Below, piece after piece: positions 1,436 through 60,395 of a stretch of 64,000 bases of DNA. The DNA is taken from the NCBI GenBank assembly GCA_948144175.1, contig CANXME010002654.1, positions 1,426,001-1,490,000 on the forward strand, in the 5' to 3' direction. Origin of the DNA: Closterium sp. NIES-65 (lineage: Eukaryota > Streptophyta > Zygnematophyceae > Desmidiales > Closteriaceae). How positions within the stretch are numbered: position 1 is the first letter of the stretch; every line of letters begins with the position of its first letter. A program made the translations under genes and the position numbers. A model generated the notes under the pieces. It searched no databases. It was not told the origin of the DNA and worked only from the letters and a program-made list of their open reading frames with translations.

Positions 1436-1480
1436 GCGATCAGCTATTGTTCAGACGTCAATTGTCCATAGTGAAGGACT

Positions 1481-1914
1481 GTGCATCTATCGTTAAAATG
1501 GCAATCATGGGCAAAGAAACGCCCACACTTTCTTGAGAAAACGGAGCCTTGCTACCGAACCGACCTCACGATCTCGCAGGATTGTCGGACTTGGAAGAAC
1601 GTTTGGTTTTACCGCGCGTTGTGTTTTCAAACATTACACAAACGCACGTTGGGAAACAGTACAAGATACGCGGCGGAGTAGTAAATGTTCCAGTTAAGGT
1701 TGTTGACATGGTAACTGCATTGCCTCGACTACTACAAGAAACTCATACTGTTCGTGTGCATTTTAAACGCAAATTGCAGAGTGGGCATAATGTGTATGAG
1801 GACAACGTGAGACCCGCCAAGATATTGCGAGCCATTTTGTATTTTGAGAAGAAATATTTGTTCAAGAAATTTGGAATTAGACTAGATAATGAAGTAATGG
1901 TTGAATCAAAATGA
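1481..1914 (+). pseudogene. Helitron protein, DUF6570-like N-terminal part
   Basis: One frame carries SIVKMAIMGKETPTLS up to about 1533, and the next carries ENGALLPNRPHDLAGLSDL and onward to VMVESK at 1911. The LEERLVxPRVxF and GxxVNVP boxes are those of the DUF6570 domain that precedes Helitron_like_N in Helitron transposases. Its role is unknown. The region upstream of 1481 (1436-1480) is in keeping with the same protein but too short to judge. Confidence 0.75.
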
Positions 1915-1917
1915 GAG

Positions 1918-2661
1918 ATGGATGATATCGATCTCCACAACCAGTTTTTATCGCACAGCAACAGTGATCAAACGAACAATCATTTGGAGACTAACGAAGG
2001 TGTGACTGGATTGGGAGTTGAGGAAGTGGAAGTGGATATTGACGAAGCCGATTTAAATGTCGATATCTTGGATACCATCATTTGTAATGAGCCATTGTAT
2101 CAAAATTTAGAGCAATACGTGGTAGAAATGGCGCCCAGCAAAAGGTCGCGACCGTTGCCTATTCTAATGGATAAACACGTCGAGGAGTTAGCATTTCCTA
2201 CATTATTTTGCGGAGAAGTTCGATTGCCAGGTATCGATGTATCCGCATTAAGTTATCGTAATATTGCAAAATGGGAACTCCTTCATAAAGATGCTCGTTT
2301 TTCTTCATGTGCGCATTTTTTTTTTAAAGATGTTTAAGCTAGAATTGATCCTGATGGACAACGTAATTGGCACACGTGTGCGACGAGAAATGATCGAGCA
2401 TGATGGAGAATATTCGGCTAAGGATATGCTGAATATTGATACGAGTCGATTATTACAAAAAAAAAAAAAAAAAAAAAAACGTTGTTCAACGAGTTCAAAA
2501 TTCTTCGCATGTCATCGAAGTACTATGAGAATTGTAGGAAAGATATGTTTGCAATGATACGTCAGTTAGGTCCACCAACATTCTTTTTAACGATATCTAT
2601 GGCCGATACAAAATGGATTGACCTGCACGTTATTCTACTGGAACATAACAGAAATACAGGA
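1918..2661 (+). pseudogene. Helitron protein, acidic linker and Helitron_like_N domain
   Basis: 1918-2315 encodes an acidic stretch (VEEVEVDIDEADLNVD), then PSKRSRPLPILMDKHVEELAFPTLF and YRNIAKWELLHKDARFSSCAHFFF. The frame then switches in the T run to KMFKLELILMDNVIGTRVRREM and, after the poly-A run, to FNEFKILRMSSKYYENC, MFAMIRQLGPPTFFLTISM and ADTKWIDLHVIL. The last part is the Helitron_like_N signature (QLGxPTFFxTxSxADxxW). Both frame changes fall in homopolymers, so either decay or base-calling error could explain them. Confidence 0.8.
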
Positions 2662-2783
2662 TGAGGAAATTAGAACGAGAATGAATTGACTATGGAATGG
2701 AAGTGATACAAATATGCAACCCTAGAAATGTGTACCCCATATGAGCTACCCCACTATAGCCTACACAAGATTATAATTTGACA
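2662..2783 (-). repeat. 3' LTR of element A (122 bp)
   Basis: On the + strand it runs from TGAGGAAATTAG to TTTGACA, that is TGTCA...CTCA on the element strand. It differs from 9117-9238 by one base near its end. It is followed (in the - reading, preceded) by the CCTATGGGGGTG polypurine tract at about 2784-2796. Confidence 0.93.
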
Positions 2784-2991
2784 CACCCCCATAGGCAAAG
2801 TGGGGGAGAACAAGGGGTCACAAGACCAGTCAACCAAAGCGAAGCAAAGCTCAGGGTGGATCACAAAGTCACCACACATTCCGAGCACAAGTTCAAGGCC
2901 AGAAGGCCAGTTCACATGCAGGAGCACATATATATATAAGAGGCTAAGCAAGCAAGAGCAAGAGTATATATATGTGACAGTACAAGCAAGG

Positions 2992-5900
2992 TCAAGAAGT
3001 GAGCAAGTGAGGCAAGACAGGCACAAGACCAAGCTGAGTACAGAAGCGCTGATGATCACAAGGCGCAAGCGCCTTGGTGAAAACATCGGCAGTGTTGGCC
3101 TCAGAGGCCACGTACGCAAGTCGCAACTGACCACGCTGCTGTAGCTCACGAGCAAGGAAGTAGCGAAGAGCAATGTGCTTTGTTCTATGCTCCAGTTGCT
3201 GCTCTCGACACAAGGCCAGCATGGCCTTGTTGTCTACGTACAGGACTGGAGGAGAACGAGGCGGCTCTCCAAGGTTGGTCAGAAGGTAGGTGAGCCAGTG
3301 AAGCTCCTGGGCAGCCATGGCCCCGGCGTAGATCTCAGCCTCACAAATGGAGCCGAGAACAGAAGACGAGCGAGTAGCCCGCCACGAAACAGAGCCGGAA
3401 CCAAGGCTGAAGGTGTAACCCTGTGACGACCGCTGCGTAGCCTGGTCGTCAGCCCAAGAAGCATCCGCGTGCCCAGTGAGGACCACAGGACTCCGCCCTC
3501 CAAGCACTAGCCCCATGCCCGACGTACTACACAAGTAGCGCAACACCCTCTTTGCTGCAGCCATGTGCTCTGGTCGGTGTCTCCCAGGAGCAACATAGCG
3601 TGCAAGAATGCTAAGAGGGTATGCAAGGTCAGGTCGTGTGCAGGTCATCAGGTACATGAGGCAACCAACAAGCTCTGGATACGGGCCACTCGACTCTACG
3701 GACTCATCCGAAGGCAGAGCTGAGAGTGAGTGGCGAGTAGGCAGAGGAGTGGCCTGAGGCGAGGAGTACGTGAAGCCGAAGCGCTGAAGGACCTGCTGCA
3801 CCATGTGTGACTGAGTCAGGGTAATGGTGCGGAATGCTCTGTCCCGGGTGATCTGCAAGCCAAGGTAGCTGCGCAGTTCACCCAGGTCAGTGCACGTGTG
3901 TCTCTTCTGCAGCTTAGACTTCACGTAGGCGAGTCCAACAGTGTCAGCTGTGGCAAAGACCAAGTCGTCGACGTACACGAGGATGTAGAACGGCGGCAGA
4001 GAGGTGTCGGTGCGCAGAATTAGCGACGTGTCGGCAGTAGAAGGAGCAAACCCAAGAGCCGCGAGTGTAGTCCTCAGTGTGTCGTGCCACTCACGTGGCG
4101 CCTGGCGGAGACCGTAGACTGGACGCCGGAGACTCCACTGGGTACCAGGAGGGAAAGACCTAGTGAAGCCAGGTGGGCGGCGCAGCCAGATCTCCTCGTG
4201 CAGGCTGCCCTGCAAGAAAGCAGTGCTGAAGTCAAGAGAGTGCAGCTCGTAGTCACGGTGAGCAGCAACGTGCAGCAGTACCCGAAGAGTGGTCATCTTC
4301 GGGGTGGGGGAGAAGGTCTGAAAGTAGTCAACTCCCTGCCGCTGACTGAAGCCACGAGCCACGTAATGCGCCTTGAAGACAGGCGGAGAACCCGGCGGCC
4401 GCTTCACCCTGAAGATCCACATGCCACTGACGATGTTCGCCCCAGGAGGGGGGACAGCGTCAACGTAGGTGCCTGTGGACTTCCAGGAAGCCATCTCTGC
4501 ATCCATAGCTGCCTGCCACTGAGAGGAGTAGGGACCCTCTATCGCCTCCGCGTAAGAGCGCGGAGTCGGGATGTCAAGTGCATCCGGGTCTCCCTCAGGG
4601 GTAAGCAGTACTGACACGATATGAGGTGAAGCAGCTGCCAGACACTGGAACTCCTCCTGCCTGTCCTCAAGGACGTCCGTGCCAAGGGCACACTCACCCC
4701 CGACGGACGGAGGACAGACAGACGCAGACTCAGTGACAAGACTAGCAGCGTAGTCTAGGCGACAGCGAGCAGCAAAGTCGACGAGCTCATTGACGAGGGC
4801 AGACGCAGCAGTAGACTCAAAAGAAGGGTTAGTGACGACAGTAGCAAGGAGACGCGTGACAGTAGGACTAGCAGCACGAAGAGAGTCTGACTCTGGGTCG
4901 GCAAGAGCAGGAAGATAGGACTCAGGAGGGGAAGGCAAAGGGGCACACAGAGGAGCAGTAGATGGACGCAGAGACATCCGGTGCGTGCCAGGGACAGGAG
5001 GAGGACGCTGACGCGAACCGCGACCACTAGTGCGAGCAGCACGAACAGGCGACGCTGGACGAGACGCAGGCTCACGACGCTCAGTAAGACCTCCAGTAGG
5101 ACCAGCGTAGGGAGAAGGAGCAGGCAAAGGGGAGGCAGGCTGTAGCTGTGACTGTGACGGGACAGGCTGTGGACCCTCTAAGGGAGGAGGAGGACCAGTA
5201 GATGGTGGAAGACCAAGAACCTGCTGCAGGAGTGGAACGAAGTACGGTCGAGGCCGCGTGGCGACGCCAGAAACAGCAGGGACAGCACCAGTACCCGCAG
5301 CAGGAGCACCCGCTCCAGCAGCACCTCCAGCAGCTCCAGAACCTCCAGCAGCACCAAGAGCACCCCCAGCAGGACCGCCAGTGGTAGTCTCAGCGCCAAC
5401 ACCCTCAGCAGTACCAGCTCCAGTCGAACCTGCAGGCCCAGCAGTATGAGCACCTCCGGGACCCGCGACAGCAGCACCCTCAGTAGCCGAAGAACCTCCA
5501 GCACCAGCAGCACGGCTCCAGCGCAGGGCAAACCACTCGCGCAGTTCCTGTGGAGAGAGTTGCTCCCGGCGAGACGAAGCACCTGGAGAACCTCCAGGCG
5601 GAGCACCTCCAGGCTCAGCACCCCCAGGCCCAGCACCCCCAGGTAAAGCACCTCCAAGCTCAGCACCCCCAGGCCCAGCACCCCCAGGCAAAGCACCCCC
5701 AGGCAAAGCACCCCCAGGCTCAGCACCCCCAGGCTCAGCACCCCCAGGCTCAGCACCCCCAGGCTTATCACCCCCAGGCTCAGCACCCCTAGGCTCCGCA
5801 CCCCCAGGCTCAGCACCCCCAGTCTCAGCACCCCTAGGCTCAGCATCCTCAGCTGCACCAGAGTCACCAGTGACCACGACAGGTTCGACTGCGTCTACCT

Positions 5901-6165
5901 TGGACACACCTGAAGGAGCAGGACCCTGAGGGGGAAGGGGGTCTACCGGGGGGGGATCTGGTACAAGGAAGAGCGGGGGCGGGGGGAGGGACGGAGTGCG
6001 GTAGGGGAAGAGGCGGTAGTAGGGGACCGACTCGTCGAACGTGACGTCTTGGGAGGACAGAACACGGCGAGAGGTGGGGTGGTAGAACTGCCACCCAGGC
6101 GCGTCGGGGGGGAACCCCAGGAAGACGCAAGGAGCAGCGCGAGGGGACAGCTTGTCCGCAGACAA
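2992..6165 (-). CDS. Copia pol part: integrase end, linker, RT, RNase H (element A)
   Basis: A 1057-codon open stretch, part of the copia polyprotein rather than a free-standing gene. Order: end of integrase (SADKLSPRAAPCVFLGFP, DVTFDESVPYYRLFPYRT), a GAEPG-type repeat tract, a SPQELREWFALRW box, a proline- and serine-rich linker, RT (WIFRVKRPPGS, HSLDFSTAFLQGSLHEEIW, YVDDLVFATAD), RNase H (CEAEIYAGAMAAQEL, YVDNKAMLALCRE, ANTADVFTKALAP), ending LLTS. It is in the same order and nearly the same length as in elements H and I. Confidence 0.88.
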   Translation of the reverse strand: MSADKLSPRAAPCVFLGFPPDAPGWQFYHPTSRRVLSSQDVTFDESVPYYRLFPYRTPSLPPPPLFLVPDPPPVDPLPPQGPAPSGVSKVDAVEPVVVTGDSGAAEDAEPRGAETGGAEPGGAEPRGAEPGGDKPGGAEPGGAEPGGAEPGGALPGGALPGGAGPGGAELGGALPGGAGPGGAEPGGAPPGGSPGASSRREQLSPQELREWFALRWSRAAGAGGSSATEGAAVAGPGGAHTAGPAGSTGAGTAEGVGAETTTGGPAGGALGAAGGSGAAGGAAGAGAPAAGTGAVPAVSGVATRPRPYFVPLLQQVLGLPPSTGPPPPLEGPQPVPSQSQLQPASPLPAPSPYAGPTGGLTERREPASRPASPVRAARTSGRGSRQRPPPVPGTHRMSLRPSTAPLCAPLPSPPESYLPALADPESDSLRAASPTVTRLLATVVTNPSFESTAASALVNELVDFAARCRLDYAASLVTESASVCPPSVGGECALGTDVLEDRQEEFQCLAAASPHIVSVLLTPEGDPDALDIPTPRSYAEAIEGPYSSQWQAAMDAEMASWKSTGTYVDAVPPPGANIVSGMWIFRVKRPPGSPPVFKAHYVARGFSQRQGVDYFQTFSPTPKMTTLRVLLHVAAHRDYELHSLDFSTAFLQGSLHEEIWLRRPPGFTRSFPPGTQWSLRRPVYGLRQAPREWHDTLRTTLAALGFAPSTADTSLILRTDTSLPPFYILVYVDDLVFATADTVGLAYVKSKLQKRHTCTDLGELRSYLGLQITRDRAFRTITLTQSHMVQQVLQRFGFTYSSPQATPLPTRHSLSALPSDESVESSGPYPELVGCLMYLMTCTRPDLAYPLSILARYVAPGRHRPEHMAAAKRVLRYLCSTSGMGLVLGGRSPVVLTGHADASWADDQATQRSSQGYTFSLGSGSVSWRATRSSSVLGSICEAEIYAGAMAAQELHWLTYLLTNLGEPPRSPPVLYVDNKAMLALCREQQLEHRTKHIALRYFLARELQQRGQLRLAYVASEANTADVFTKALAPCDHQRFCTQLGLVPVLPHLLTS
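5580..5870 (-). repeat. GAEPG-coding minisatellite (element A linker)
   Basis: Tandem 15-bp units (on the + strand, variants of CTCAGCACCCCCAGG) encode repeated GGAEP/GGALP pentapeptides between integrase and RT. About 19 units are present. The same tract, with other copy numbers, is present in C, L, G, H, I and E. Confidence 0.9.
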
Positions 6166-7041
6166 GTCGCGGACAAACGCCCGAGATCCTCAGACCCGGA
6201 ACGCCGACGCATCGCCAACCTTCCCCGTCCACATCAGGGCTGGGGAGGTCTCCGGCCTGGAGACCCTGGGGTGAAGGTTGATCTGATGCGCCGCGTACCT
6301 GACCGCAAACGGCCACAGAAAATGGGGGGCAGCCGCATGCATCATAGACGTACGAGCGACGTCCATGACCATGCCAATGCGGCGCTCAGCAATCCCATTT
6401 TGCTGCGGGGAGTCCGGAAGCGTGAAGTCTGACGGATGCCTCGTGCACGACAGTAGGCTCTCAGAAGGCCAGAGGAGAACTCTCCGCCTCTGTCATAGTG
6501 CAGACGCAGAATAGGAAAGTCCTAGCCAAAGCTCGAGACGAGCTGCGCGGATCCAGTCGATCAGCACCTCGGTGACATCACCCTTGCTGCGCAAGGGGAA
6601 GACTGCGGTGTAACGCGAGTACTCGTCAACAACCAGCAGGAAGTAGCGCTCGTGACCCTGTCCACGGACGCGGGCTGGGCCCCACACGTCCATGTGAAGC
6701 GTCTGCAGCGGGGCCTCTGTCGGAGGAAACTGGGAGGAGTGAGGGGCAGCACGCAGGCGCCCCTCGACACAGGGGACACAGGCAGGGCCAGGGCCCTGAG
6801 GAAGGGGAGGGAGGGACCGGGGCAGACCAGACACAAGAAGACGGGAGGCCATGCCTCTGAGCCGAAGCAGAGAGGGGTGACCAAGGCGGTGGTGCCAGAG
6901 GAGAGTCTTGTGAGACAGGAGACGACACGAACAGGGGGCAGAGTCAGGACCAGACCTGAACGCTGCAGCAAACACCTGACCCGACGCAGCGACCCGACCA
7001 GACTCAGCAACGGGAGGAGACGCATTGGTCAGTGTGTACAC
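5990..7041 (-). pseudogene. Copia integrase region (element A)
   Basis: Reading leftward from about 6930: the zinc-binding front HRLGHPSLLRLRGM and the core boxes DVWGPARVRGQGHERYF, VVDEYSRYTAVFPLRSKGD, SPQQNGIAERRIGMV-like, and WPFAVRYAAHQINLHPRVS. These are the copia GAG-pre-integrase and DDE integrase motifs, which join element cDNA into the genome. Broken. Confidence 0.82.
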
Positions 7042-7951
7042 TCACGGAGCTGCTGAGGGGGGGGGGATGTCCCGAGAACGCTGCTGCTGCTGCTGCTGGC
7101 GCTGACCACCACCAGTGCTGCTCCGCTGCGAAGCGCCACCCCGACCACCTCCACCTCCTCCTCCAACGCCTCCTCCACCCCCGCCACCATCGCTGCCTCC
7201 GCTAGGACCGCCGCCGCCTCCGCCGCCTCCGCCTCCACTGCTGCCACCGACACCTCCACCCCCGCCACCACTCCCACCGCCACCCCCACCGCCACCCCCA
7301 CTTCCTCCGCCGCCTCTACCGCCTCCTCCACCGCCGCCTCCACCGCCCCCGCTAGCTCCACCCGCACCCTTGCCCCCCTTGCCCTTGCCAGGGCGGTGTC
7401 TCCCGCTAGGGGCAGACGCCGCACCGACCGACTCAAGACCAACGAGGTGGGTGACTATAAAATAGAGAGTGATGTACATGGGGGTGGGGGGTCTTGGCGC
7501 AGAACTCAGCAAGAAGCGCGGCGCGGTAGCGAGTGTCACTAGTGCGGAGGTGCGTAATGAGGTCAGCGACTGTGGAAAAGGCAGCAAGGTCACGGAAGAG
7601 GAAGGGTAGCAAGAGGCGGCTCAGTGCAGCAGTGGCAGGGGAAGAGTAGCGTGCAACTACAGCGTCGTACAAGGTCTGAGCACTCTTGTACTGACTAAAT
7701 TGCGCGCACTCAGCGGTAGGCAGGTGGCGACGCACAGCAAGACGTGCAGCAGCATCGCGCGTGGCCCACTGGGAGCGAACAGTGGGGTCAGCATCAGCAG
7801 CAGGGGCAGGAGAGGCGCCAGAGGTAAGGTCAAAGAGAGAGAGACCGTCTGCCCTATCGCACTGTAAGTACAGCTGCAGGTCGTCGACCCAGACCTCAAA
7901 GTCAATGGTGCGACCCTCAGCGTCAAAAGCGAGGACACTGGGGGTAGCCAT
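7030..7951 (-). pseudogene. Copia gag region (element A)
   Basis: Starts at 7951 with MATPSVLAFDAEGR, the conserved Gag start of this clan (IDFEVWVDDLQLYLQCDRAD, DAAARLAVRRHLPT, YDAVVARYSSPATAALSRL, LRTSDTRYRAALLAEFCAK). It then enters an extreme glycine-rich tract (about 7100-7370) and a glutamine-rich end. Gag forms the particle shell; the Gly/Arg-rich tail would be the RNA-binding part. Broken. Confidence 0.82.
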
Positions 7952-8094
7952 GACAACAGTAGACTAGCAGTACCAACTGTAGGACAGGGGCAGTGCAGTG
8001 ACAGAGGCGCTGTTCTCACCAGACAGGGCGCTTGGGGCAGCTGAGCAGCATATCAAAACGGCAACACTGCTGCTCGGACGGCTCAGCAGCAACA

Positions 8095-8390
8095 GCGGCT
8101 CCGCGGTACCAGCGGCTCGGCTCCTCTGGCGGCTCGGGCGGCTCGGGCGGCTCGGCTCCTCAGCGGCTCTGGCGGCTCGGGCGGCTCGGCTCCTTAGCGG
8201 CTCGGGCGGCTCGGCTCCTCAGTGGCTCAGGCGGCCCGGGCGGATCATCAGGGTCGGGCAGCTCGGGCGGCTCAGGCGGCTCCGGCAGCTCGGCTCTCAC
8301 CGGCTCAGGCGGCTCCTTAGGCGGCTCGGGCGGCTCGACTCCTCGGCGGCTCAGGCAGCTGGGGCTGCTCGGGCGGAGCGGGCGGTGAAG
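8095..8390 (-). repeat. 9-bp CGGCTCGGG tandem tract (leader, element A)
   Basis: On the + strand, imperfect tandem CGGCTCGGG/CGGCTCCTC units lie just upstream of gag. Matching tracts sit in the same place in L (23835-24080), G (45370-45620), C (about 16790-16990) and, on the + strand, D (25920-26130). Reading frames through it are low-complexity and not taken as genes. Confidence 0.8.
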
Positions 8391-8539
8391 GGCGGCGGGG
8401 CCGCAAGGTAGGAGGCGGGGCCGCAGTAGGAGAGGCGGCGGGTCTGCAGAGAAGGAGGTGGCGGGGCCGCGACGAACGGCGGCGGGGCCGCAGTGGGAGA
8501 GGCGGCGGGGCCGTAGTGAAGGGCGGGGGAGCCGCTGAG

Positions 8540-8960
8540 AAGGGCGGCGGCGCCGCTGCGAGAGAGGCGGCGAGGCCGCGATGAAGGGCGGTGGGGCCGC
8601 GACGAAGGGCGGCAGGGCCGCGACGAAGGGCGGCGGGGCCGCGACGAAGGGTGGCGGGGCCGCGACGAAGGGCGGCGGGGCCGCGACGAAGGACGGCGGG
8701 GCCGCGACGAAGGGCGGCGGGGCCTCAGTGGGAGGCGGCGGGGCCGCTGAGAAGGTGGCGGGGCCGCACCGAGAGAGGCGGCGGGGCCGAATCGACGGGC
8801 GGCGGGGCCGTTAGGGTGGCGGGGCCTAATCGACGGGCGGCGGGGCCGAATCGACGGGCGACGAGGCCGTGAGGGCGGCTAGGCCTAATCGACGGGCGGC
8901 GGGGCCGAATCGACGGGCGGCGGGGCCTAATCGACGGGCGGCGGGGCCACTAGGGCGATG
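8540..8960 (-). repeat. 21-bp GC-rich leader minisatellite (element A)
   Basis: Near-exact 21-bp units occur from about 8578 to 8740 (core GCCGCGACGAAGGGCGGCGG). Degenerate relatives (GGCGGCGGGGCCGAATCGAC) run on to about 8960. The tract lies between primer site and gag, so it belongs to the untranslated leader. Confidence 0.85.
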
Positions 8961-9041
8961 GGGCCGCTAGGGCGTTGGGGCCGCTAGGGCGGCTCGACGA
9001 AGTGAGAGCCCGGAGCGCGACTCAGGCTGAGCGCGCTTCGG

Positions 9042-9116
9042 GCAGAAAAAAAAAAAAAAAAACTCGATGTGGTGGGCCCTAGGCACAGTTCCCAGGGGGG
9101 AACCTGCTCGATACCA
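9042..9116 (-). promoter_or_regulatory. Primer site, hairpin and T-tract of element A leader
   Basis: On the element strand the LTR is followed at once by TGGTATCGAGCAGG (9103-9116), a good match to the site for initiator tRNA-Met priming. A GTTCCC...GGGAAC hairpin (about 9088-9103), the palindromic CCTAGGGCCCACC box, a long T tract and CTGCCCGAAGCGCGC then follow. The same order recurs in C, D, G, L and J. Confidence 0.85.
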
Positions 9117-9238
9117 TGAGGAAATTAGAACGAGAATGAATTGACTATGGAATGGAAGTGATACAAATATGCAACCCTAGAAATGTGTACCCCATATGAG
9201 CTACCCCACTATAGCCTACACAAGATTATTATTTGACA
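9117..9238 (-). repeat. 5' LTR of element A (122 bp)
   Basis: Partner of 2662-2783 with one difference. On the + strand it starts TGAGGAAATTAG beside the primer site and ends TTTGACA. It is followed by CAGAA, the right copy of the target duplication. Confidence 0.93.
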
Positions 9239-9594
9239 CAGAAAATTTAGCTAGCCTTTCAAATACCATTGTAATCCCTCCTTTGGATTTCGAGAACTAT
9301 AGCTTTGCTCGTCAGTAGATCTGTACTGTGGATGCCCGATTGATCCTGGAGAGGGTTACAAGCGCGTTCACCTGGGGGGTGATAGGCGCACTGACCCGCT
9401 ACTCAAACAAGCCCTTTTATCCCAATGGTTTAGTGGTTGGGATTCTGACATTGCTCGTACGCACATACCCTGTTGTTAGCGCGCGATACTACGTCGAACG
9501 GAAAAATGCATTGTTTGGTGAGATTCTAACGAAGAAAAAGGGAACTCTGGGAGCAATTATAGATTATTTTGCTCTCGACGAGTTTCAACATAGG
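9239..9594 (+). mobile_element. Helitron block 2 (Rep, region before the HUH motif)
   Basis: AT-rich block whose + frame from 9241 reads ENLASLSNTIVIPPLDFENY, one in-frame stop near 9316, then ICTVDARLILERVTSAFTW, YPVVSARYYVERKNAL, KKGTLGAIIDYFALDEFQHR. The PVxxARYYxxR and DYFxxDEFQHRG boxes are those that lead into the HUH motif of Helitron Rep. The frame agrees in phase with block 1 once element A is set aside. The block stops at EFQHR. Beyond a shared CATAGG it becomes copia 3' UTR sequence of segment B without an intervening LTR. Confidence 0.82.
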
Positions 9595-9790
9595 CAAAGT
9601 GGGGGAGAACAGAGGGTCACAAGACCAGTCAAGCAAGGCAAAGCAAAGCTCAGGGTGGATCACAAAGTCACCACACATTCCGAGCACAAGTTCAAGGCCA
9701 CAAGGCCAGTTCACATGCAGGAGTACACATATATAAAGGGCTAGACAAGCAAGAGCAGGTATAAATATATATGTAACAGTACAAGCAAGG

Positions 9791-10886
9791 TCAAGAGGTG
9801 AGCAAGTGAGGCAAGACAGGCACAAGACCCAACTGAGTGCAGAAGCGCTGATGATCACAAGGCGGAAGTGCCTTGGTGAACACATCAGCAGTGTTGGCCT
9901 CAGAGGCCACGTACGCAAGCCGCAGCTGTCCACGCTGCTGTAGCTCACGAGCAAGGAAGTAGCGGAGAGCAATGTGCTTCGTTCTATGCTCCAGTCGCTG
10001 CTCTCGACACAAGGCCAGCATGGCCTTGTTGTCTACGTACAGAATTGGAGGAGAACGAGGTGGCTCTCCAAGGTCGGTCAGCACGTAGGTGAGCCAGCGA
10101 AGCTCCTGTGCAGCCATGGCCCTAGCATAGATCTCAGCCTCACAGCTGGAGCCGAGAATAGAAGACCAGCGAGTAGCCCGCCACGAGACAGAGCCGGAAC
10201 CAAGGCTGAAGGTGTAACCCTGTGACGACCGCTGTGTAGCCTGGTCGTCAGCCCAGGAAGCGTCTGCGTGCCCAGTGAGGACCACTGGACTGCGCCCTCC
10301 AAGCACTAGCCCCATGCCCGACGTACTGCACAAGTAGCGCAACACCCTCTTCGCTGCAGCCATGTGCTCTGGTCGGTGTCTCCCAGGAGCAACATAGCGT
10401 GCGAGAATGCTAAGAGGGTATGCAAGGTCAGGTCGTGTGCAGGTCATCAGGTACATGAGGCAGCCAACAAGCTCTGGATACGGGCCACTCGACTCTACGG
10501 ACTCATCCGATGGCAGAGCTGAGAGCGAGTGGCGAGTAGGCAGAGGAGTGGCCTGAGGCGAGGAGTACGTGAAGCCGAATCGCTGAAGGACCTGCTGCAC
10601 CATGTGTGACTGAGTCAGGGTAATGGTGCGGCGTGCTCTGTCCCGGGTGATCTGCAAGCCAAGGTAGCTGCGCAGTTCACCCAGGTCTGTGCACGTGTGT
10701 CTCTTCTGCAGCTCGGACTTCACGTAGGCGAGTCCAGCAGTGTCAGCTGTGGCAAAGACCAAGTCGTCGACGTACACGAGGATGTAGAACGGCGGCAGAG
10801 AGGTGTCGGTGCGCAGAAACAACGACGGGTCAGCAGTAGAAGGAGCAAACCCAAGAGCCGCAAGTGTAGTCCTCAGTGTGTCGTGC
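9791..10886 (-). pseudogene. Copia pol part: RT end and RNase H (segment B)
   Basis: An open stretch from HDTLRTTLAALGFAPSTADP through YVDDLVFATAD (10763-10774), LGELRSYLGLQITRDRARR, RPDLAYPLSILARYVAPG and GHADASWADDQ, to CEAEIYARAMAAQEL, YVDNKAMLALCREQRL, ANTADVFTKALPP and LLTS. It is nearly identical to the matching parts of A and H. Confidence 0.85.
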
Positions 10887-11543
10887 CCTCTTTTTGTCTT
10901 CAGTGTCGCCGCCCTCACTCGGCCCGTTGCTGCCTGTTGCGGCCCATCGCCACCCTTCCGCGGCCCGCCGCCACCCTTACACGGCCCCTTGCCGCCCTTA
11001 TCCGGCCCGTCGCCGCCCTCAGCAGCTCGGCGCCGCCCTTCCCGGCCCTTTGCGCCGCCCTAACGGCTCGCTGCCGTCCTCTCACGGCCCGCCGTCGCCG
11101 CCCTTCGGCTCAGCCCACCGTGCGCCACCCTACACGGCCTCGGCGCCTCCTCCTCCTATCCCACGGCCTCGGCGCCTCCTCCTCCTATCCCACGGCCGCC
11201 CCACCTCCACTCGGGCCGTCGTCACGGAGGCAGGAGCCGTCGCAGCCGGGCCGCCGAGCCGCCGAGCAGCCGAGCCGCCGAGCCGCCGAGCCGCCCAGCC
11301 GCCGAGCTGCCCAGCAGCCGAGCCGCCCTACAGCCGAGTCGCCCGCACTTCCGAGCCACCCGAGCAGCCCTGTCTGGTAACTGCGGCGCCTCTGTCCCTG
11401 CACTGCCCTTACCCTACTGGTCGCGCTACTAGTCTACTGCTGTCATGGCTACCCCTAGTGTCCTAGCTTTTGACGATGAGGGTCGGGCCATTGACTTTGA
11501 CGTCTGGGTAGACGACCTGAAGCTTTTCCTCCAGTGTGCGCCT
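10887..11543 (+). mobile_element. Copia leader and gag start, inverted relative to B and C
   Basis: GC-rich leader on the + strand (CGGCCC-type repeats, then CCGAGCCGC units at 11245-11340), with a CTGGTAACTG-like site. A Gag start follows at 11445 (MATPSVLAFDDEGRAIDF, DVWVDDLKLFLQC). It then passes into segment C, which reads on the other strand. Only the opposite orientation to its neighbours sets this piece apart. Confidence 0.78.
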
Positions 11544-11565
11544 GGCAGAGACCGTATACTCGACT

Positions 11566-13391: not shown

Positions 13392-13639
13392 AGCAGGGAC
13401 AGCACCAGTACCCCCAGCAGGACAGCGAGCAATAGGCTCAGCACCAACGCCCGCTGCAGCACCAGCTCCAGTCGAACTCGCAGGCCCAGCAGCTCCAGTA
13501 CTCCCGGTACGAGCACCTCCGGGACCCCCGGCACCAGCAACCTCAGCAGTCGAAGAACTTCCAGCTCCAGTAGCACGCCTCCAGCGCCGGGCAAACCTCT
13601 CGCGAAGCTCCGGTGGAGAGAGTGGCTCCCGGCGAGACG

Positions 13640-13880: not shown

Positions 13881-14050
13881 GAGAGGCTTAACTGCGTCCA
13901 CCTGGGACACTCTGAAGGGGCAGGACCCTGAGGGGGGAGGGGGTCTACCGGGGGGGGACCTGGGACCAGAAAGAGCGGGGGCGGGGGGAGGGACGGAGTG
14001 CGGTAGGGGAAGAGGCGGTAGTAGGGGACCGACTCGTCAAACGTGACGTC

Positions 14051-20423: not shown

Positions 20424-20429
20424 ACGAGC

Positions 20430-24322: not shown

Positions 24323-24330
<8 letters not shown>

Positions 24331-49200: not shown

Positions 49201-49595
49201 AGTGACTGCGACTGGACAGGCCGTGGAGACTCTACCGGAGGAGAAAGACCAAGAACCTGCTGCAGGAGCGGAACGAAGTACGGCCGAGGCCGCGCGGCAG
49301 CTCCAGACTCAGCAGGGATAGCACCAGCACCCTCAGCGACAGCACCAGCGCCACCAACACCTCCAGCGGCAGGACCTCCAGCAGCACCAGCAGCAGAACC
49401 ACCGCGAGGACAGACAGTAGTGGTCTCAGCACCAACACCCTCAGCAGCGCCAGCTCCAGTAGGACCCGCAGGCCCAGCAGCTCCGGGACCGGCAGCACCA
49501 GCACCCTCGACGGTCGAAGAAGCTCCAGCTCCAGCAGCACGCCTCCAGCGGCGAGCAAACCACTCGCGCAGCTCCTGTGGAGAGAGGGGCTCCCG

Positions 49596-51533: not shown

Positions 51534-51599
51534 AGCAGTACCAATGCCCGGGTCGGGCTGGAAACACCGGTAACCCCAGTCTCCTCACTAATAGTCACA

Positions 51600-52789
51600 G
51601 CATACATAGCAGCAAGGATAGCATCAAAATCAAGATCAAAGATCGCTACACCAGCCCTAAGAAGCTCATCCCAGCGAGGGATCTCACTAGCCCCGGGGAA
51701 CTGCTGACGCCAAGCGTCCGTCAGGCGGCCAAAGCAGCGCTGGTTGGGGTGGGCACCCCCACACTGCTCACCCGCGCGGTCGCCGGAACGAAGGACGTAG
51801 GTGCAAGGACCAGTACCCCCACCCCTCTGACGCTGAGTGTACCACTCACGAAGCTGCTGAGGCGGAGGGATGTCCCGCGAACGCTGCTGCTGCTGCTGCT
51901 GCGAGCGCTGGCCACCACCACCGCCGCTCCGCTGCTGGGTACCACCCCGACCAGCTCCACCCCCTCCACCACCACCGCCTCCCCCGCTGCCTCCTCCGCC
52001 GCCTCCACCTCCGCCGCTGCCACCACCACCACCGCTGCCACCACCACCGCCGCCTCCGCCGCTGCTGCCACCACCACCACCACCCCCGGCACTACTCCCG
52101 CCGCCACCCCCACTCCCTCCGCCGCCTCCGCCGCCACCGCCACCGCCCCCTCCAGCTCCACCCGCGCCCTTGCCCCCCTTGCCCTTGCCAGAGCGACGTC
52201 TCCCACTAGGGGCAGACGCCGCGCCGACCGACTCAAGACCAAGCAGGTCGGCAGCAGCAGCAGAGGCAACAGAGGGCAGCAAGGGGGAAGGAGAGCACCC
52301 CTCAAAGATGGGGGTGCGAGGGTCACCACGAGAAGCTCCTACAGCGACTATGCTCTTCTCCGCTGCGAGGAGGGCCTTCTCGAGGACGTCGACGGTGAGG
52401 GTGGTGGGACAGACCGCGAGAAAGTGGTCCCTGACTACGCGAAGGGAGTCAGGGAGGCGCGCGACTATGTAGTAGAGAGTGATGTACATGGGGGGGGGGT
52501 TCTTAGCGCAGAACTCAGCAGGAAGGGCAGCGCGGTAGCGAGTGTCACTAGTGCGGAGGTGCGTAATGAGGTCAGCGACAGTGGGAAAGGCAGAGAGGTC
52601 AGGAAAAAGGTAGGGAAGCATGAGACGGCTCAGTGCAGCAGTGGCAGGGGAGGAGTAGCGCGCAACTACAGCGTCGTACAAGGTCTGAGCACTCTTGTAC
52701 TGACTAAAGTGCGCGCGCTCAGAGGTAGGGAGGTGGCGACGCACAGCAAGACGTGCAGCAGCATCGCGGGTGGCCCACTGAGAGCGCAC
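51600..52789 (-). CDS. Copia gag part (element H)
   Basis: Open stretch, leftward: SQWATRDAAARLAVRRHLPT, YDAVVARYSSPATAALSRL, LRTSDTRYRAALPAEFCAK, CPTTLTVDVLEKALLAAEKS, GASRGDPRTPIFEGCSPSPL, a long glycine-serine tract (about 51960-52170), QQLREWYTQRQRGGGTG, the spaced zinc knuckle CTYVLRSGDRAGEQC-GGAH-PNQRC, RLTDAWRQQFPGASEIPRW and FDLDFDAILAAMYAVTIS. The last part overlaps the usual start of the protease reading frame. Confidence 0.86.
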
Positions 52790-52829
52790 AGTGGGATCAG
52801 CATCAGCAGCAGGAGCAGGAGAGGCGCCG

Positions 52830-53160
52830 CGTCGTAGCGGGCGGCGGGGCCGCGTCAGATCAGGCGGCGGGGCCGCGTCGTAGCGGGCGGCGGGACCGCG
52901 TCAGAGCAGGCGGCAGGGCCGCGTCGAGCAGGCGGTGGGGCCGCTCCGTAGCGGGCGGCGTGGCCGCGTCAGAGCAGGCGGCAGGGCCGCGTCGAGCAGG
53001 CGGCGGGGCCGCGTCGTAGCTGGCGGCGGGGCCGCGATCGGGTGGCGGGGCCGCGACGTGGCGGCGGGGCCGCGATCGGGTGGCGGGGCCGCGATCAGAA
53101 GGGGTGGCGGGGCCGCGTCTGAGGGACGGCGGGGCCACGAGGGAAAGGGCGACTCGAGGG
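52830..53160 (-). repeat. GC-rich leader repeats (element H)
   Basis: Units built on GGCGGCGGGGCCGCGTC with GTAGC/AGAGCA variants (about 35 bp), shorter than in other copies. No gene is seen. Confidence 0.8.
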
Positions 53161-53166
53161 GTCGCT

Positions 53167-53244
53167 AAAAAAAAAGGTGCGCGCCTCGGGGCGCGCTTCG
53201 GTGGGCCCTAGGCAACGTTCCCACAGGGAACTCGCTCTATACCA
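53167..53244 (-). promoter_or_regulatory. Primer site, hairpin and GC arm (element H leader)
   Basis: On the element strand: TGGTATAGAGCGAG, GTTCCCTGTGGGAAC hairpin, TGCCTAGGGCCCACCG, then a second hairpin GCGCGCCCCGAGGCGCGC, T run and AGCGACCC. The second hairpin replaces the CCTGCCC box of the other subfamily; I has a related one. Confidence 0.84.
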
Positions 53245-53375
53245 TGTGAAATATATGACCAGGAATGGGAATGACTAAGTTAGAGTTGGGTACAAATACA
53301 ACCCTAGAAAGCTGTACCCCATATGTGCTACCCCACTATAGCCTACAAACATGCATCAGCTATAATAATCTGACA
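53245..53375 (-). repeat. 5' LTR of element H (131 bp)
   Basis: On the + strand it runs from TGTGAAATATATGACC to AATCTGACA, then AAAAC, the right target duplication. Confidence 0.94.
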
Positions 53376-54003
53376 AAAACCTTTTCGGTGAATTCTCGCT
53401 ATGACACAATATCTCGAATGCAGTTTCCATTGCGACCAAGTAATGCGATAAGTTTTCATCGAAGTCAAGGTGCCACTTTCGAGAGTGGAGTCATACATTT
53501 TGAATCCGAAGTCTTTCCCCAAGGAGCATACGTTGCTTTGAGTCGATTTCGCAGTCCTGCTCGATTGTTTCTTCGAAGTTTTTTCATAAACATGCATTAA
53601 AACGGATTCTCGTGTAGTGGCGGAAATGCGTCGTCTACATGAGAGACTCCTTGTTTTGAATCCAAGACCGATTGGTGCGATCGTTCAACAACAGTCATTG
53701 ATGAAGTTTGCATTTCAAAATGTGAGGAACTTTCGAGGGCATCATAGAGATGTTAATATCAACAGTCTTGATGGATTTGATTTCACAGTTCTCTTTGAGA
53801 CACACTTGGGTGAGAATGATGCGTTACCAAACTCGACGAACAACATCTTCAGGATTGTTCGTTTTGATTACAAATCTGGTGGGATTCTTTTATACCATCG
53901 TACTTCAATAAGAAACGTACAATATGTTGAAAACTCAAAAGTCGAGTTGTTAACTTTTTCTATCAACGCAAAAGATGAAGAAGTTGAGTTGTTATCGTAA
54001 TCC
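53376..54003 (+). mobile_element. Helitron block 6 (helicase end and EEP endonuclease start)
   Basis: AT-rich. First frame, in phase with block 5: FSVNSRYDTISRMQFPLRPS, NAISFHRSQGATFESGVIHF, GAYVALSRFRSPARLFLRSF. This holds the PIF1 C-terminal motifs HRSQGxT and YVALSRxRS and ends with a stop at about 53598. Second frame from about 53617: MRRLHERLLVLNPRPIGAIV, KFAFQNVRNFRGHHRDV, FTVLFETHLGENDAL, RIVRFDYKSGGILLYHRTS, VELLTFSINAKDEEVELLS. Its FxNVRxFRGHxxDV, FxETHL and GGILLYxR match endonuclease/exonuclease/phosphatase domains, where E of ET and later acidic residues bind metal. A frame change lies between helicase and EEP. The block ends at the LTR of element I. Confidence 0.85.
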
Positions 54004-54137
54004 TGTCAGAACATTATAGCTTATATATATTTGTGTAGGCTATAGTGGGGTATCCCATAGGGGGTACAACCCAATCAGGGTTTCCTATATGTACTCACTT
54101 CATTCATAGTTGATTCATCCTCGTTCTCATTCTCACA
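54004..54137 (+). repeat. 5' LTR of element I (134 bp)
   Basis: TGTCAGAACATTATAGC to GTTCTCATTCTCACA, with a TTATATATATTTG A/T tract and the shared core. Two differences from 60163-60296. Confidence 0.94.
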
Positions 54138-54225
54138 TGGAATCAGAGCAGGTCCCCTCCTATGGACTGTTCCTAGGGCCCACCGAAGCGCGCCTCGAGT
54201 CGCGCTCTCCTTTTTTTTAGCGACC
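54138..54225 (+). promoter_or_regulatory. Primer site and leader head of element I
   Basis: TGGAATCAGAGCAGG directly after the LTR, GTCCCC...GGAC weak hairpin, TGTTCCTAGGGCCCACCG, GCGCGCCTCGAGTCGCGC inverted repeat, 8-T run, AGCGACCC. Same plan as H. Confidence 0.84.
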
Positions 54226-54299
54226 CTTCGTGTCGCCCCTAGCGGCCCGTCAGCGCCGCCTTTACGGTCGTGCCGAGCCGCCTTAGCGGCAGTGACGCG

Positions 54300-54750
54300 C
54301 CGCCCTTGCAGCGGCCTGTTGCGCCGCCCTACCTCGCGGCCCCGCCGCCCCATCGCGCGGCCTCGCCGCCCTACTCCTTCGGCCCCGCCACCCTACGTCG
54401 CGGCCCCGCCGCCCTACGCCGACGGCCCCGCCGCCCTACTCACGCGGCCCCGCCGCCCTACTCCTGCGGCCCCGCCGCCCTACGTCGCGGCTCCGCCGCC
54501 CTACACCGACGGCCCCGCCGCCCTACTCACGCGGCCCCGCCGCCCTACTCCTGCGGCCCCGCCGCCCTACGTCGCGGCCCCGCCGCCCTACCTTTCGACG
54601 GCCCCGCCGCCCTACGTCGCGGCCCCGCCGCACTACGCCGACGGCCCCGCCGTCCTACCTTTCGACGGCCCCGCCGCCCTACGTCGCGGCCCCGCCGCCC
54701 TTCTCGACGGCCCCGCCGTCCTACGTCGCGGCCCCGCCGACCTACTTTGC
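54300..54750 (+). repeat. 21-bp leader minisatellite (element I)
   Basis: About 20 units on the pattern CGGCCCCGCCGCCCTACGTCG, the reverse-strand relative of the unit in A. CCGAGCCGCC(GAGCAG) units follow to about 55075. No gene is seen. Confidence 0.86.
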
Positions 54751-55109
54751 GGCCCGCCAGCCGCCCTACCTGCTGCCATCCCGCAGCTCTACCTGCGGCC
54801 CACCCGCCGCCCTACCTGCGGCCCACCCGCCGCCCTACCCACGACCGCCGCGCCGCCCTGAACTAGCGCCACCGAGCCGCCCGACCGCTGGGTCGCCCAG
54901 CAGCCGAGCCGCCGAACCGCCCAGCAGCCGAGCCGCTGAACCGCCGAGCCGCCCAGCAGCCGAGCCGCCGAGCCGCCGAGCCGCCCAGCAGCCGAGCAGC
55001 CGAGCCACCGAGCCGCCCAGCAGCCAAGTCCCCCAGCAGCCAAGCCGCCCAGCAGCCGAGCCGCCGGCCGCTGAGCTGCCCTACTTCCAGACCGCCCGAT
55101 CTGCCCAGT

Positions 55110-56955
55110 GTGGTCGTGAGTCCCTGTCCCCTCAGCAGCTCCGGGAGTGGTACACTGCGCGCCAGCGGGGTGGGGGTTTTGGTTCGTGCACCTACGTCCT
55201 GCGCACCGGCGACCGTGCAGGTGAGCAGTGTGGGGGTGCGCACCCCTCCCAGCGCTGCTTTGGCCGCCTGACGGACGCGTGGCGTCACCAGTTCCCGGAG
55301 GCCTCAGAGATCCCTCGCTAGGGTGAGCTGTCTAGGGCGGGTGTTGCCATCTTTGATCTTGACTTTGATGCTATTCTCTCTGCCATGTATGCTGTGTCTA
55401 TTAGTGATGAGGGTGACTGTTACCGATGTTTCCCGCCCGATCCGGGCATTGAGTCTGCTGCTCTAGGTACTGGTGCGGCTGCTGCCCTAGGTGCTTGCGA
55501 CGCTGCTGCTCTAGGTGCTAGTGTGTCTGCGTCCTTAGGTACTGGTGAGTCTGCACTCTCAGGCACTACGTCGGCTTCGGCCTCCCTCACCTTCACTCTT
55601 GACTCTGGGGCATCTCGCTCCTTCTTTCGGGACCGCACCACACTCACGCCGCTCAGTCGGCCGGTTGCGGTGTCTCTGGCTGACCCCTTCGAGGGTCCTG
55701 TACTGTCTCGCTTCTCCACAGTCCTCCCGTGTCCGGCGGCTCCCTCTGGCGCCCTGTCTGGTCTTTACCTCCCCTCGTTCTCTACAAACCTGGTGAGTGG
55801 TGCTGACCTACAGGATGCAGGTGTCCACCAGTTCACTCCTGCGCGTCAGCGAGTGACGCACTGCACAGAGGCCAGCACAGGCCGACACCTGGCTACGTTC
55901 TCCTGTCAGCCGGGGTCGAGCCTATACACTCTGACCACTGCGTCTCCTCCAGTTGCTGAGTCTGGTAGGGTAGCTGCGTCGGGTCAGGTGTTTGCTGCGG
56001 CGTCCAGGTCTGGTCTTGAGTCTGCCCCCTGTTCGTGTCGTCTCCTGTCTCACGAGACTCTCCTCTGGCACCACCGCCTTGGCCACCCCTCTCTGCTTCG
56101 GCTCAAAGGCATGGCCTCCCGTCTTCTTGTATGTGGTCTCCCCCGGTCCCTCCCCTTCCACAGGGCCCTGGCCCTGCCTGAGTCCCTGGTGTCGAGGGGC
56201 GCCAGTGGGCTGCCCCTCACTCCTCCCAGTTTCCTCCGACAGAGGCCCTGTTGTAGACGCTACACATAGATGTGTGGGGCCCAGCCTGCGTCCGTGGACA
56301 GGGTCACGAGCGCTACTTCCTGCTCGTTGTTGACGAATACTCGCGTTACACCACAGTCTTCCCCTTGCGCAGCAAGGGTGATGTCACTGAGGTGCTGATC
56401 GACTGGATCCGCGCAGCTTGTCTCCAGCTCAGGCAGAGCTTTGGCTCGGACTTTCCTGTTTTGCATCTGCACTCGGACAGAGGCGGAGAGTTCTCCTCTG
56501 GCCTTCTGCGAGCCTACTGTCGTGCACGAGGCATCCGTCAGACCTTCACGCTTCCGGACTCACCGCAGCAAAATGGGATTGCTGAGCGCCGCATTGGCAT
56601 GGTCATGGACGTCGCTCGTACGTCTATGATGCATGCGGCTGCCCCCCATTTTCTGTGGCCGTTTGCGGTCAGGTACGCGGCGCATCAGATCAACCTTCAC
56701 CCCACGGTCTCCAGGCTGGAGACCTCCCCAGCCTTGCTGTGGACGGGGAAGGTTGGCGATGCGTCGGCGTTCTGGGTCTGGGGATCTCGGGCGTTTGTCC
56801 GCGACTTGTCTGCGGACAAGCTATCCCCTCGCGCTGCTCCCTGCGTCTTCCTGAGGTTCCCCCCCGAAGCCCCTGGGTGGCAGTTCTACCACCCCACCTC
56901 TCGTCGTGTTCTGTCCTCCCAGGACGTCACGTTCGACGAGTCTGTACCCTAATAC
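55110..56955 (+). pseudogene. Copia gag end, protease and integrase (element I)
   Basis: LSPQQLREWYTARQRGGGFG, spaced zinc knuckle CTYVLRTGDRAGEQC-GGAH-PSQRC, FDLDFDAILSAMYAVSIS, ALGAC/ALGAS repeats, protease box FTLDSGASRSFFRDR, LVSGADLQDAGVHQFTPAR, LLSHETLLWHHRLGHPSLL, VVDEYSRYTTVFPLRSKGD, HSDRGGEFSSGLLRAYCRAR, SPQQNGIAERRIGMV, DVTFDESV. Broken. Confidence 0.84.
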
Positions 56956-57105
56956 CGCCTCTTCCCCTACCGCACTCCGTCCCTACCCCCGCCCCTGCTC
57001 TTCCTTTTCCTAGGTCCCCCCCCCCGGTAGACCCCCTCCCCCCTCAGGGTCCTGCCCCTTCAGGTGTGTCCCAGGTAGACGCAGTCGAGCCTGTCGAGGT
57101 CACTG

Positions 57106-57320
57106 GTGACTCTGGTGCTGCTGAGGGTGCTGAGCATAGGGGTGCTCAGACTGGGGGTGCTGAGCCTGGGGGTGCTGCGCCTGGGGGTGCTGGGCCTGGG
57201 GGTGCGGAGCCTGGGGGTGCTGAGCCTGGGGGTGCTACGCCTGGAGGTGCCTTGCCTGGGGGTGCTGGGTCTGGGGGTGCTGGGCCTAGAGGTTCTACGG
57301 GTGCTTCGTCTCGCCGGGAG
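57106..57320 (+). repeat. GAEPG-coding minisatellite (element I linker)
   Basis: About 12 units of 15 bp (GGGGGTGCTGAGCCT) between integrase and the SRREPLSPQ box. The shortest such tract among the near-complete copies. Confidence 0.88.
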
Positions 57321-57349
57321 CCACTCTCTCCACAGTAGCTGCGCAAAAT

Positions 57350-59949
57350 TTGCCCGGCGCTGGAGCCGTGCTGCTGGTGCTGGAGGTTCGTCGGCTACTG
57401 AGGGTGCTGCTGTCGCGGGTCCCGGAGGTGCTCGTCCTGGGAGTACTGGAGCTGCTGGGCCTGCGGGTTCGACTGGAGCTGGTGATGCTGAGGGTGTTGG
57501 CGCTGAGACTACCACTGGCGGTCCGGCTGGCGGTGCTCCTGGTGCTGCTGGAGGTTCAGGAGCTGCTGGAGGAGCTGCTGGGGGTTCTGGAGCTGCTGGA
57601 GGTGCTGCTGGAGGTGCTGCTGGAGCGGGTACTCCTGCTGGGGGTACTGGTACTGTCCGTGCTGTGTCTGGCGTCGCGGCGCGGCCTCGACCGTACTTGG
57701 TTCCACTCCTGCAGCAGGTTCTTGGTCTTACACCTTCTTCTGGTCCTCCTCCTCCTCCCTTAGAGGGTCCACAGCCTGTCCAGTCACAGTCACAGCTACA
57801 GCCTGCCTCCCCTTTGCCTGCTCCTTCTCCCTACGCTGGTCCTAATTGAGGTCTTACTGAGCGTCGTCAGCCTGCGTCTCGTCCTGCGTCGCCTGTTCGT
57901 GCTGCGCGCGCTAGTGGTCGCAGTTCGCGTCGGCGTCCTCCTCCTGTCCCTGGCACGCACCGGATGTCTCTGCGTCCGTCTACTACTCCTCTGCGTGCCC
58001 CTTTGCCTTCTCCTCCTGCGTCCTCTCTTCCTGCTCTTGCCGACCCGGAGTCGGACTCTCTTCGTGCTGCCAGTCCTACTGTCACGCGTCTCCTTGCTAC
58101 TGCCGTCACTGACCCTTCTTTCGAGTCTACTGCTGCGTCTGCCCTCGTTACTGAGCTCGTCGACTTTGCAGCTCGCTGTCGTCTAGACTACGCTGCTAGT
58201 CTTGTCGCTGAGTCTGAGTCTGTCTGTCCTCCGTCCGTCGGGGGTGAGTGTGCCCTTGGCACGGACGTCCTTGAGGATAGGCAGGAGGAGTTCTAGTGTC
58301 TGGCCGCCGCTTCACCTCATCTCGTTTCCGTACTGCTCACCCCTGAGGGAGACCCGGATGCACTTGACATCCCGACTCCGCGCTCTTACGCGGAGGCGAT
58401 AGAGGGTCCCTACTCCTCTCAGTGGCAGGCAGCTATGGATGCAGAGATGGCTTCCTGGAAGTCCACAGGCACCTACGTTGACGCTGTCCCCCCTCCTGGG
58501 GCGAACATCGTTAGTGGCATGTGGATCTTCAGGGTGAAGCGGCCGCCGGGTTCTCCGCCTGTCTTCAAGGCGCGTTACGTGGCTCGTGGCTTCAGTCAGC
58601 GGCAGGGATTTGACTACTTTCATACCTTCTCCCCCCCCCCGAAGATGACCACTCTTCGGGTACTGCTGCACGTTGCTGCTCACCGTGACTACGAGCTGCA
58701 CTCTCTCGACTTCAGCACTGCTTTCTTGCAGGGCAGCCTGCACGAGGAGATCTGGCTGCGCCGCCCACCTGGCTTCGCTGGGTCTTTCCCTCCTGGTACC
58801 CAGTGGAGTCTCTGGCGTCCAGTCTACGATCTCCGCCAGGCGCCACGTGAGTGGCACGACACACTGAGGACTACGCTGGCGGCACTTGGGTTTGCTCCTT
58901 CTACTGCCGACCCGTCGCTGTTTCTGCGCACCGACACCTCTCTGCCGCCCTTCTACATCCTCGTGTACATTGACAACTTGGTCTTTGCCACAGCTGACAC
59001 TGCTGGACTCGCCTACGTGAAGTCCGAGCTGCAGAAGAGACACACGTGCACTGACCTGGGTGAACTGCGCAGCTACCTTGGCTTGCAGATCACCCGGGAC
59101 AGAGCACGCCGCACCATTACCCTGACTCAGTCACACATGGTGCAGCAGGTCATTGAGCGCTTCGGCTTCACGTACTCCTCGCCTCAGGCCACTCCTCTGC
59201 CTACTCGCCACTCGCTCTCAGCTCTGCCTTCGTATGAGTCCGTAGAGTCGAGTGGCCCGTATCCAGAGCTTGTTGGCTGCCTCATGTACCTGATGACCTG
59301 CACACGACCTGACCTTGCATACCCTCTTAGCATTCTTGCGCGCTATGTTGCTCCTGGGAGACACCGACCAGAGCACATGGCTGCAGCGAAGAGGGTGTTG
59401 CGCTACTTGTGCAGTACGTCGGGCATGGGGCTAGTGCTTGGAGGGCGCAGTAAAGTGGTCCTTACTGGGCACGCGGACGCTTCTTGGGCTGACGACCAGG
59501 CTACGCAGCGGTCGTCACAGGGTTACACCTTCAGTCTTGGTTCCGGCTCTGTTTCCTGGCGGGCTACCCGCTCGTCTTCTGTTCTCGGCTCTAGTTTTGA
59601 GGCTGAGATCTACGCCGCGGCTATGGCTGCCCAGGAGCTTCGCTGGCTCACCTACCTGCTGACCGACCTTGGAGAGCCGCCTCGTTCTCCCCCAGCCCTG
59701 TACGTAGACAACAAGGCCATGCTGGCCTTGTGTCGAGAGCAGCGATTGGAGCACAGGACAAAGCACATTCCTCTCCGCTACTTTCTTGCTCGTGAGCTAC
59801 AGCAGCGTGGACAGTTGCGGCTTGCGTACGTGGCCTCTGAGGCCAACACTGCTGATGTCTTCACCAAGGCACTTGCGCCTTGTGATCATCAGCGCTTCTG
59901 CACTCAGCTGGGTCTTGTGCTTGTTTTGCCTCACTTGCTCACTTCTTGA
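57350..59949 (+). pseudogene. Copia pol part: linker, RT and RNase H (element I)
   Basis: Alanine-glycine and proline-rich linker, GTHRMSLRPS-type box, VGGECALGTDVLEDRQEEF, WIFRVKRPPGSPPVFKARY, LDFSTAFLQGSLHEEIW, LGELRSYLGLQITRDRARR, CTRPDLAYPLSILARYVAPG, GHADASWADDQ, AEIYAAAMAAQELRW, YVDNKAMLALCREQRLEH, ANTADVFTKALAP and LLTS. A 504-codon open stretch covers 58435-59949. Broken copy overall. Confidence 0.85.
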
Positions 59950-60162
59950 TCTTGCTTGTACCTTTACCTATATATACTCTTGCTCTTGCTTGCTTGGCCT
60001 CTTGTATATATATATGTGTGATCTTGCATGTGAACTGGCCTTTTGGCCTTTGAACTTGTGCTCGGAATGTGTGGTGACTTTGTGATCCACCCTGAGCTTT
60101 GATTTGATTTGTTTGACTGGTCTTGTGACCCCTTGTTCTCCCCCACTTTGCCTATGGGGGTG

Positions 60163-60296
60163 TGTCAGAACATTATAGCTTATATATATTTGTGTTGGCT
60201 ATAGTGGGGTATCCCATAGGGGGTACAACCCAATCAGGGTTTGCTATATGTACTCACTTCATTCATAGTTGATTCATCCTCGTTCTCATTCTCACA
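60163..60296 (+). repeat. 3' LTR of element I (134 bp)
   Basis: Preceded by the polypurine tract CCTATGGGGGTG (about 60151-60162) and followed by AATCC, the right target duplication. Confidence 0.94.
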
Positions 60297-60395
60297 AATC
60301 CAACCAATCAACGTAATCATAACATCCTTTTTGATATGATTACATCCATCATTATTAAGCATATGGACTATAACATGATTTTTTTGGGCGATTTC
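60297..60395 (+). mobile_element. Helitron block 7 (EEP endonuclease, middle)
   Basis: Only 99 bp, AT-rich, open in one + frame: NPTNQRNHNILFDMITSII, then KHMDYNMIFLGDF. The xxIFLGDFN string is the aspartate-bearing motif of EEP endonucleases. It fits directly after the part of the EEP domain seen in block 6, though one base out of phase, so a small change lies near the junction. It ends at the LTR of element J. Confidence 0.75.

Follow-up and report, generated by a model that had tools for sequence, protein, structure and literature searches.

A probable single Helitron gene interrupted by repeated copia insertions in Closterium sp. NIES-65

Among rolling-circle transposons, the bat Helitron Helraiser (7lcc) offers a residue-level reference, the residues tested in the available part of its report being H593/H595, Y727/Y731, K1068 and R1457, in that order along the protein (PMC4778049). 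Helentrons are described, in the portion of the source at hand, as an endonuclease-bearing group of Helitrons (PMC4067079). Nested insertion of LTR retrotransposons is, as general knowledge and the accessible part of the REANNOTATE paper have it, common in repeat-rich eukaryotic genomes (PMC2672092). Our literature search found no paper joining Helitron and DUF6570, and none on a Copia element, with its target site duplication, inserted into a Helitron.

The DNA analysed here, referred to as the window, comprises 64,000 nucleotides of contig CANXME010002654.1 from Closterium sp. NIES-65, and very probably contains a single Helitron gene interrupted by repeated copia insertions. The locus is an ordinary transposon nest that leaves the general view unchanged; its use is as a worked example, in which a nested cluster is read back to one gene via reading phase, LTR pairs and target duplications.

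Seven AT-rich blocks and the gene parts they carry

Seven AT-rich blocks on the + strand, with exact limits fixed from the ends of copia LTRs, total 3,282 bases at 30–46% G+C, in agreement with an earlier figure of about 3.3 kb of visible Helitron sequence. They account for seven of the 16 stretches of at least 60 bases that lie outside self-matches, all seven having a G+C content of 0.454 or less; the remaining nine range from 0.52 to 0.74. The rest of the window is mostly one G+C-rich copia family, the copies of which appear as long self-matches on both strands.

Successive blocks carry successive parts of the gene, and no part was seen twice. Block 1 (1436–2661) holds a DUF6570-like front and the first part of Helitron_like_N; block 2 (9244–9594) continues this domain and ends inside the HUH motif (EFQHR); block 3 (17837–18113) supplies the second half of that motif (PHTHCLIW) and the Rep region that follows; and block 4 (24830–25217) has the Rep end with a Y-x3-Y motif (TYIVAYM). 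The 2B region of a PIF1-like helicase lies in block 5 (46381–46703) and the last helicase motifs (SQGATF, AYVALSR) in block 6 (53381–54003), where they are followed by the start of a putative EEP domain, recognised at motif level (NVR, ETHL, GGILLY), which would continue, again at motif level, in block 7 (60302–60395), a block that ends at LGDF.

The Pfam scan covered ten open + strand pieces between stops, followed by joins in which each stop was given as X. Block 1 matched DUF6570 (PF20209) at 1e-10 and Helitron_like_N (PF14214) at 3.7e-8 over profile positions 88–131, with no Pfam match to its middle piece; block 2 alone reached positions 139–181 of the latter profile at 0.021, under the curated cut-off. 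Joined at the first insertion site (A), blocks 1 and 2 returned a single Helitron_like_N match of 47.2 bits (3.8e-12). Blocks 1–3 in window order, with X for missing residues, raised this to 61.9 bits (1.2e-16) over positions 88–191, the last of the 191 in the profile; with block 3 placed in front the match was 48.2 bits (2e-12) and stopped at 181. That the match grows with block 3 in window order, and hardly with block 3 in front, argues for one interrupted element. The joined blocks 1–3 combine Helitron_like_N with an HUH motif split between blocks 2 and 3 (EFQH...PHTH), as a RepHel protein does; a hydrophobic residue is usual, in the part of the HUH literature available, at the position where this motif has Thr (PMC6213432). 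The Y-x3-Y of block 4 falls 190 residues after the first HUH histidine in the joined frame, in a block lacking a profile match. A PDB search with the joined Rep part found nothing, and a structure model of block 4 (24861–25235) had a mean pLDDT of 51.5, too poor for comparison.

Block 5 alone reached the PIF1 2B profile (PF21530) at 0.0034, under cut-off, and PIF1 in the PDB at only 0.27; neither part of block 6 matched Pfam at cut-off. Joined at site H, the two blocks matched PIF1 (6hph) in the PDB search at 5.2e-8, block 5 aligning to residues 268–307 and block 6 to 336–389, in order. It is by the late motifs only that an SF1 PIF1-like helicase is recognised, no block showing a Walker A pattern in its three + frames. 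A profile check of every block, as the first-pass annotation had proposed, recovered DUF6570 and Helitron_like_N, while PIF1 came from the PDB search with joined blocks 5 and 6; the profiles gave no EEP match, and none at cut-off for blocks 3, 4 and 7 alone.

The EEP assignment made in that annotation was not confirmed. Neither Pfam nor NCBIfam profiles matched the region, and a PDB search returned two cystathionine gamma-lyase chains at 0.89, which we regard as chance hits; the support for the assignment is an ordered set of motifs. Blocks 6 and 7 contain, in order, NVR, ETH, GGILLY, YRNP and GDF, which we take to be EEP motifs; all five occurred in order in none of 200,000 shuffles, for a pattern written after the sequence was seen. 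The structure model of the EEP part of block 6 (53590–53997), at a mean pLDDT of 40.9, was too poor for comparison.

Besides its insertions, this Helitron copy has its own in-frame stops, at 1534, 1912 and 2335 in block 1, 9316 in block 2, 24858 in block 4 and 53598 in block 6, and its own frame breaks, at least one in block 1 (between ~2335 and 2480) and two in block 6: the copy is dead. It may have been decaying already when the insertions occurred. At ~2456–2479, in the Rep region, more than 20 consecutive A residues are probably a homopolymer expansion that followed the death of the gene.

Searches of prokaryote, plasmid and viral collections, in which absence says little, turned up no uninterrupted relative. 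Viral contigs searched with block 5, block 4, two HUH patterns and the copia RT protein gave no confirmed relative, nor did prokaryote genome contigs searched with an HUH pattern and the joined helicase. The tblastn search of plasmids matched 10 records, all at less than 60% identity, and in no record did a single place cover 80% of the query; the matched regions were annotated as PIF1 family helicase, AAA family ATPase, HRDC or tetratricopeptide proteins or had no name, and none was a Helitron. Five of the eight minus-strand frames of at least 50 aa in the blocks were scanned, none exceeding the Pfam cut-off. Over the window, Rfam gave nothing at gathering score and ARAGORN predicted no tRNA.

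Complete copia insertions

Single complete copia elements fill four of the six gaps between blocks, namely A (2662–9238), L (18114–24824) and H (46704–53375) on the − strand and I (54004–60296) on the + strand. Their LTR pairs are 97–99% identical, agreeing at 121 of 122 positions in A (2662–2783 and 9117–9238), 123 of 127 in L, 129 of 131 in H and 132 of 134 in I; differences at only 1–4 positions do not suffice for a chronology of the insertions. The 5-bp flanking duplications are exact at three sites, AATTG at L, AAAAC at H and AATCC at I, and agree at four of five bases at A (CAGGA/CAGAA), while random pairs of 5-mers from the blocks match at all five positions at a rate of 0.0017 and at four or more at 0.020. 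Reading phase is kept across the element plus one duplication at all four sites, at I in the frame CYRNPTNQRN, with a frame break just upstream, inside block 6. The first-pass annotation had described the kept phase and the duplications at A, L and H, and AATCC on both sides of I; each of these observations holds, and kept phase extends to I, beyond the original claim.

Element I encodes gag_pre-integrs and integrase (rve) followed by RVT_2, and element A RVT_2; the position of integrase before RVT_2 in element I identifies the family as Ty1/copia, and an LTR pair with a short duplication accompanies A, L, H and I. The sequence just inside the 5′ LTR may be a primer site, resembling the initiator-tRNA-Met site of plant copia elements, and would then suit a plant or algal host. 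The 5′ leaders (8100–8990, 54300–55080 and others) contain long G+C-rich arrays of short repeats that vary between copies. Repeats of 15 bp are also present in copia coding DNA (61051–61275, 5587–5886 and similar), with copy numbers that differ between elements, and are probably a spacer between integrase and reverse transcriptase.

Rearranged gaps and the number of Helitron copies

The two other gaps, the second and the fourth, are compound and rearranged, and their main-family elements are truncated and without intact LTR pairs. Gap 2 (9589–17836, − strand), between blocks 2 and 3, is made up of a 3′ copia piece without an LTR (9589–10887), an inverted leader fragment (10906–11536) and a copia element (11553–17836) whose 5′ LTR (17708–17836) adjoins block 3. 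The six bases CATAGG at 9589–9594 are common to block 2 and the copia piece, an overlap that makes it likely that a microhomology deletion took the LTR at this left junction; judging from EFQHR...PHTH, the Helitron itself appears to have lost only about four bases, within its HUH motif.

Gap 4 (25218–46380, mixed strands), between blocks 4 and 5, contains two or more + strand elements, a copia of a different kind and a − strand element. A + strand 5′ LTR starts at 25218 and a second + strand LTR lies at 26682; + strand pieces extend to ~40103, followed by the − strand element up to its 5′ LTR at 46250–46380. The different copia (30472–35303) is nested in a main-family copy, has LTRs of ~860 bp that are 94.9% identical and is flanked by TGCTG/TGTTG; its integrase runs straight into late RVT_2, and the intervening internal part is therefore missing. 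The inner ends of the gap meet, truncated, near 40101. At this head-on junction (40085–40110) a + strand element truncated in or close to its 3′ LTR abuts a − strand element truncated internally, a likely scar of the event by which the Helitron lost its middle through deletion. The gene part from after the Y-x3-Y of block 4 to before the 2B region of block 5 is absent, an estimated ~1.6 kb from the Rep end to mid-helicase, which would correspond to ~540 residues if Helraiser spacing applies.

Since gaps 2 and 4 lack intact main-family LTR pairs, blocks 4 and 5 are joined only by strand, order and composition. Blocks 1–4 might derive from one Helitron copy and blocks 5–7 from another, joined across 25218–46380, and to this we give little credence: the want of an intact main-family element in the gap, end elements that face opposite ways between different flanking 5-mers (CGGGC, GATCA), the long missing gene part and the weak match of block 5 by itself would all suit two copies, but both sets of blocks share a strand, stand in the right order without overlapping gene parts and are similar in G+C (0.381 in block 4, 0.443 in block 5), and one Helitron suffices for these facts if two elements inserted at different sites and the DNA between their inner ends was deleted. 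Seven independently scattered fragments, or an error of assembly, are scarcely conceivable, the highly repetitive setting and nothing else speaking for them against the matching 5-bp flanks and kept phase at four sites, the HUH motif split over blocks 2 and 3 and an ordered join that reaches the end of the profile.

A single interrupted Helitron is strongly favoured by successive, non-overlapping parts on one strand, by phase, by near-identical LTR pairs and by the 5-bp flanks at four sites; the earlier reading of seven in-order + strand pieces of one Helitron is thereby upheld by profiles, block order, phase, LTR pairs and flanks. The locus would have begun as one Helitron-type rolling-circle gene on the + strand, encoding DUF6570, a Helitron_like_N/HUH Rep, a PIF1-like helicase and, at the C-terminus, probably an EEP nuclease. 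A Ty1/copia family with LTRs of ~122–134 bp would have invaded it repeatedly, with 5 bp duplicated at every complete insertion, and some of the elements would have entered one another; later deletions would have removed LTR ends together with the Rep end and helicase sequence between blocks 4 and 5.

To the left, the 3′ part of a copia element (1–1435, + strand) adjoins block 1 with its LTR (1305–1435); to the right, the 5′ part of another (60396–64000, + strand) adjoins block 7 and runs off the window. Both Helitron ends, where a Helentron would have its subterminal inverted repeats, 3′ palindrome and T-rich target, lie past these flanking elements and outside the window. Inferring from junctions, nine copia hits adjoin Helitron DNA (one each at the left flank, A, gap 2, L, H, I and the right flank, and two at the ends of gap 4), the two flanking ones seen from one side only, and an earlier count of at least seven stands. 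Nine insertions within a former ~5 kb could mean that the family inserts preferentially into Helitrons or other AT-rich DNA, which we consider unlikely; if true, old Helitrons may serve as copia landing sites in the genome.

Relation to Helraiser, Helentrons and Ty1/copia

The copia family shares with Ty1/copia the order gag_pre-integrase, integrase, RVT_2 (element I), and LTRs of the TG...CA form with 5-bp duplications (A, L, H and I); unlike Ty1/copia, its LTRs are short (122–134 bp) and its leaders long, G+C-rich and repeat-bearing.

With Helraiser the Helitron shares the order HUH, a putative pair of catalytic tyrosines (Y-x3-Y) and helicase. In the available part of the Helraiser report (PMC4778049), Y727/Y731 provide the basis of comparison for the Y-x3-Y of block 4, and the tested residues run in the order in which blocks 2/3, 4 and 6 stand, the region of K1068 belonging to the missing part before block 6. 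At the level of sequence the likeness is weak, block 6 matching Helraiser residues 1410–1461 (7lcc) at 0.0099, and the DUF6570 front and probable EEP are differences from Helraiser, as is the missing Walker A part.

A C-terminal EEP, if present, would make this a Helentron-like element, and the Helentron order of Rep, PIF1-like helicase and EEP, in the portion of the Helentron source available, is the same here, the EEP being probable and at motif level only (PMC4067079). The same portion gives Leu in Helitrons and Ser in Helentrons as the residue before PHTH, and here that codon reads NCA, its first base lost, which excludes Leu and allows Ser. Of the diagnostic Helentron residues that it places before motif 2 (F/Y, then w/l/y/k, then R), only the first fits the F-A-L read in the block, and the V/I that it gives before E reads D. 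Membership of the Helentrons is likely from domain order, with the EEP recognised by motif only.
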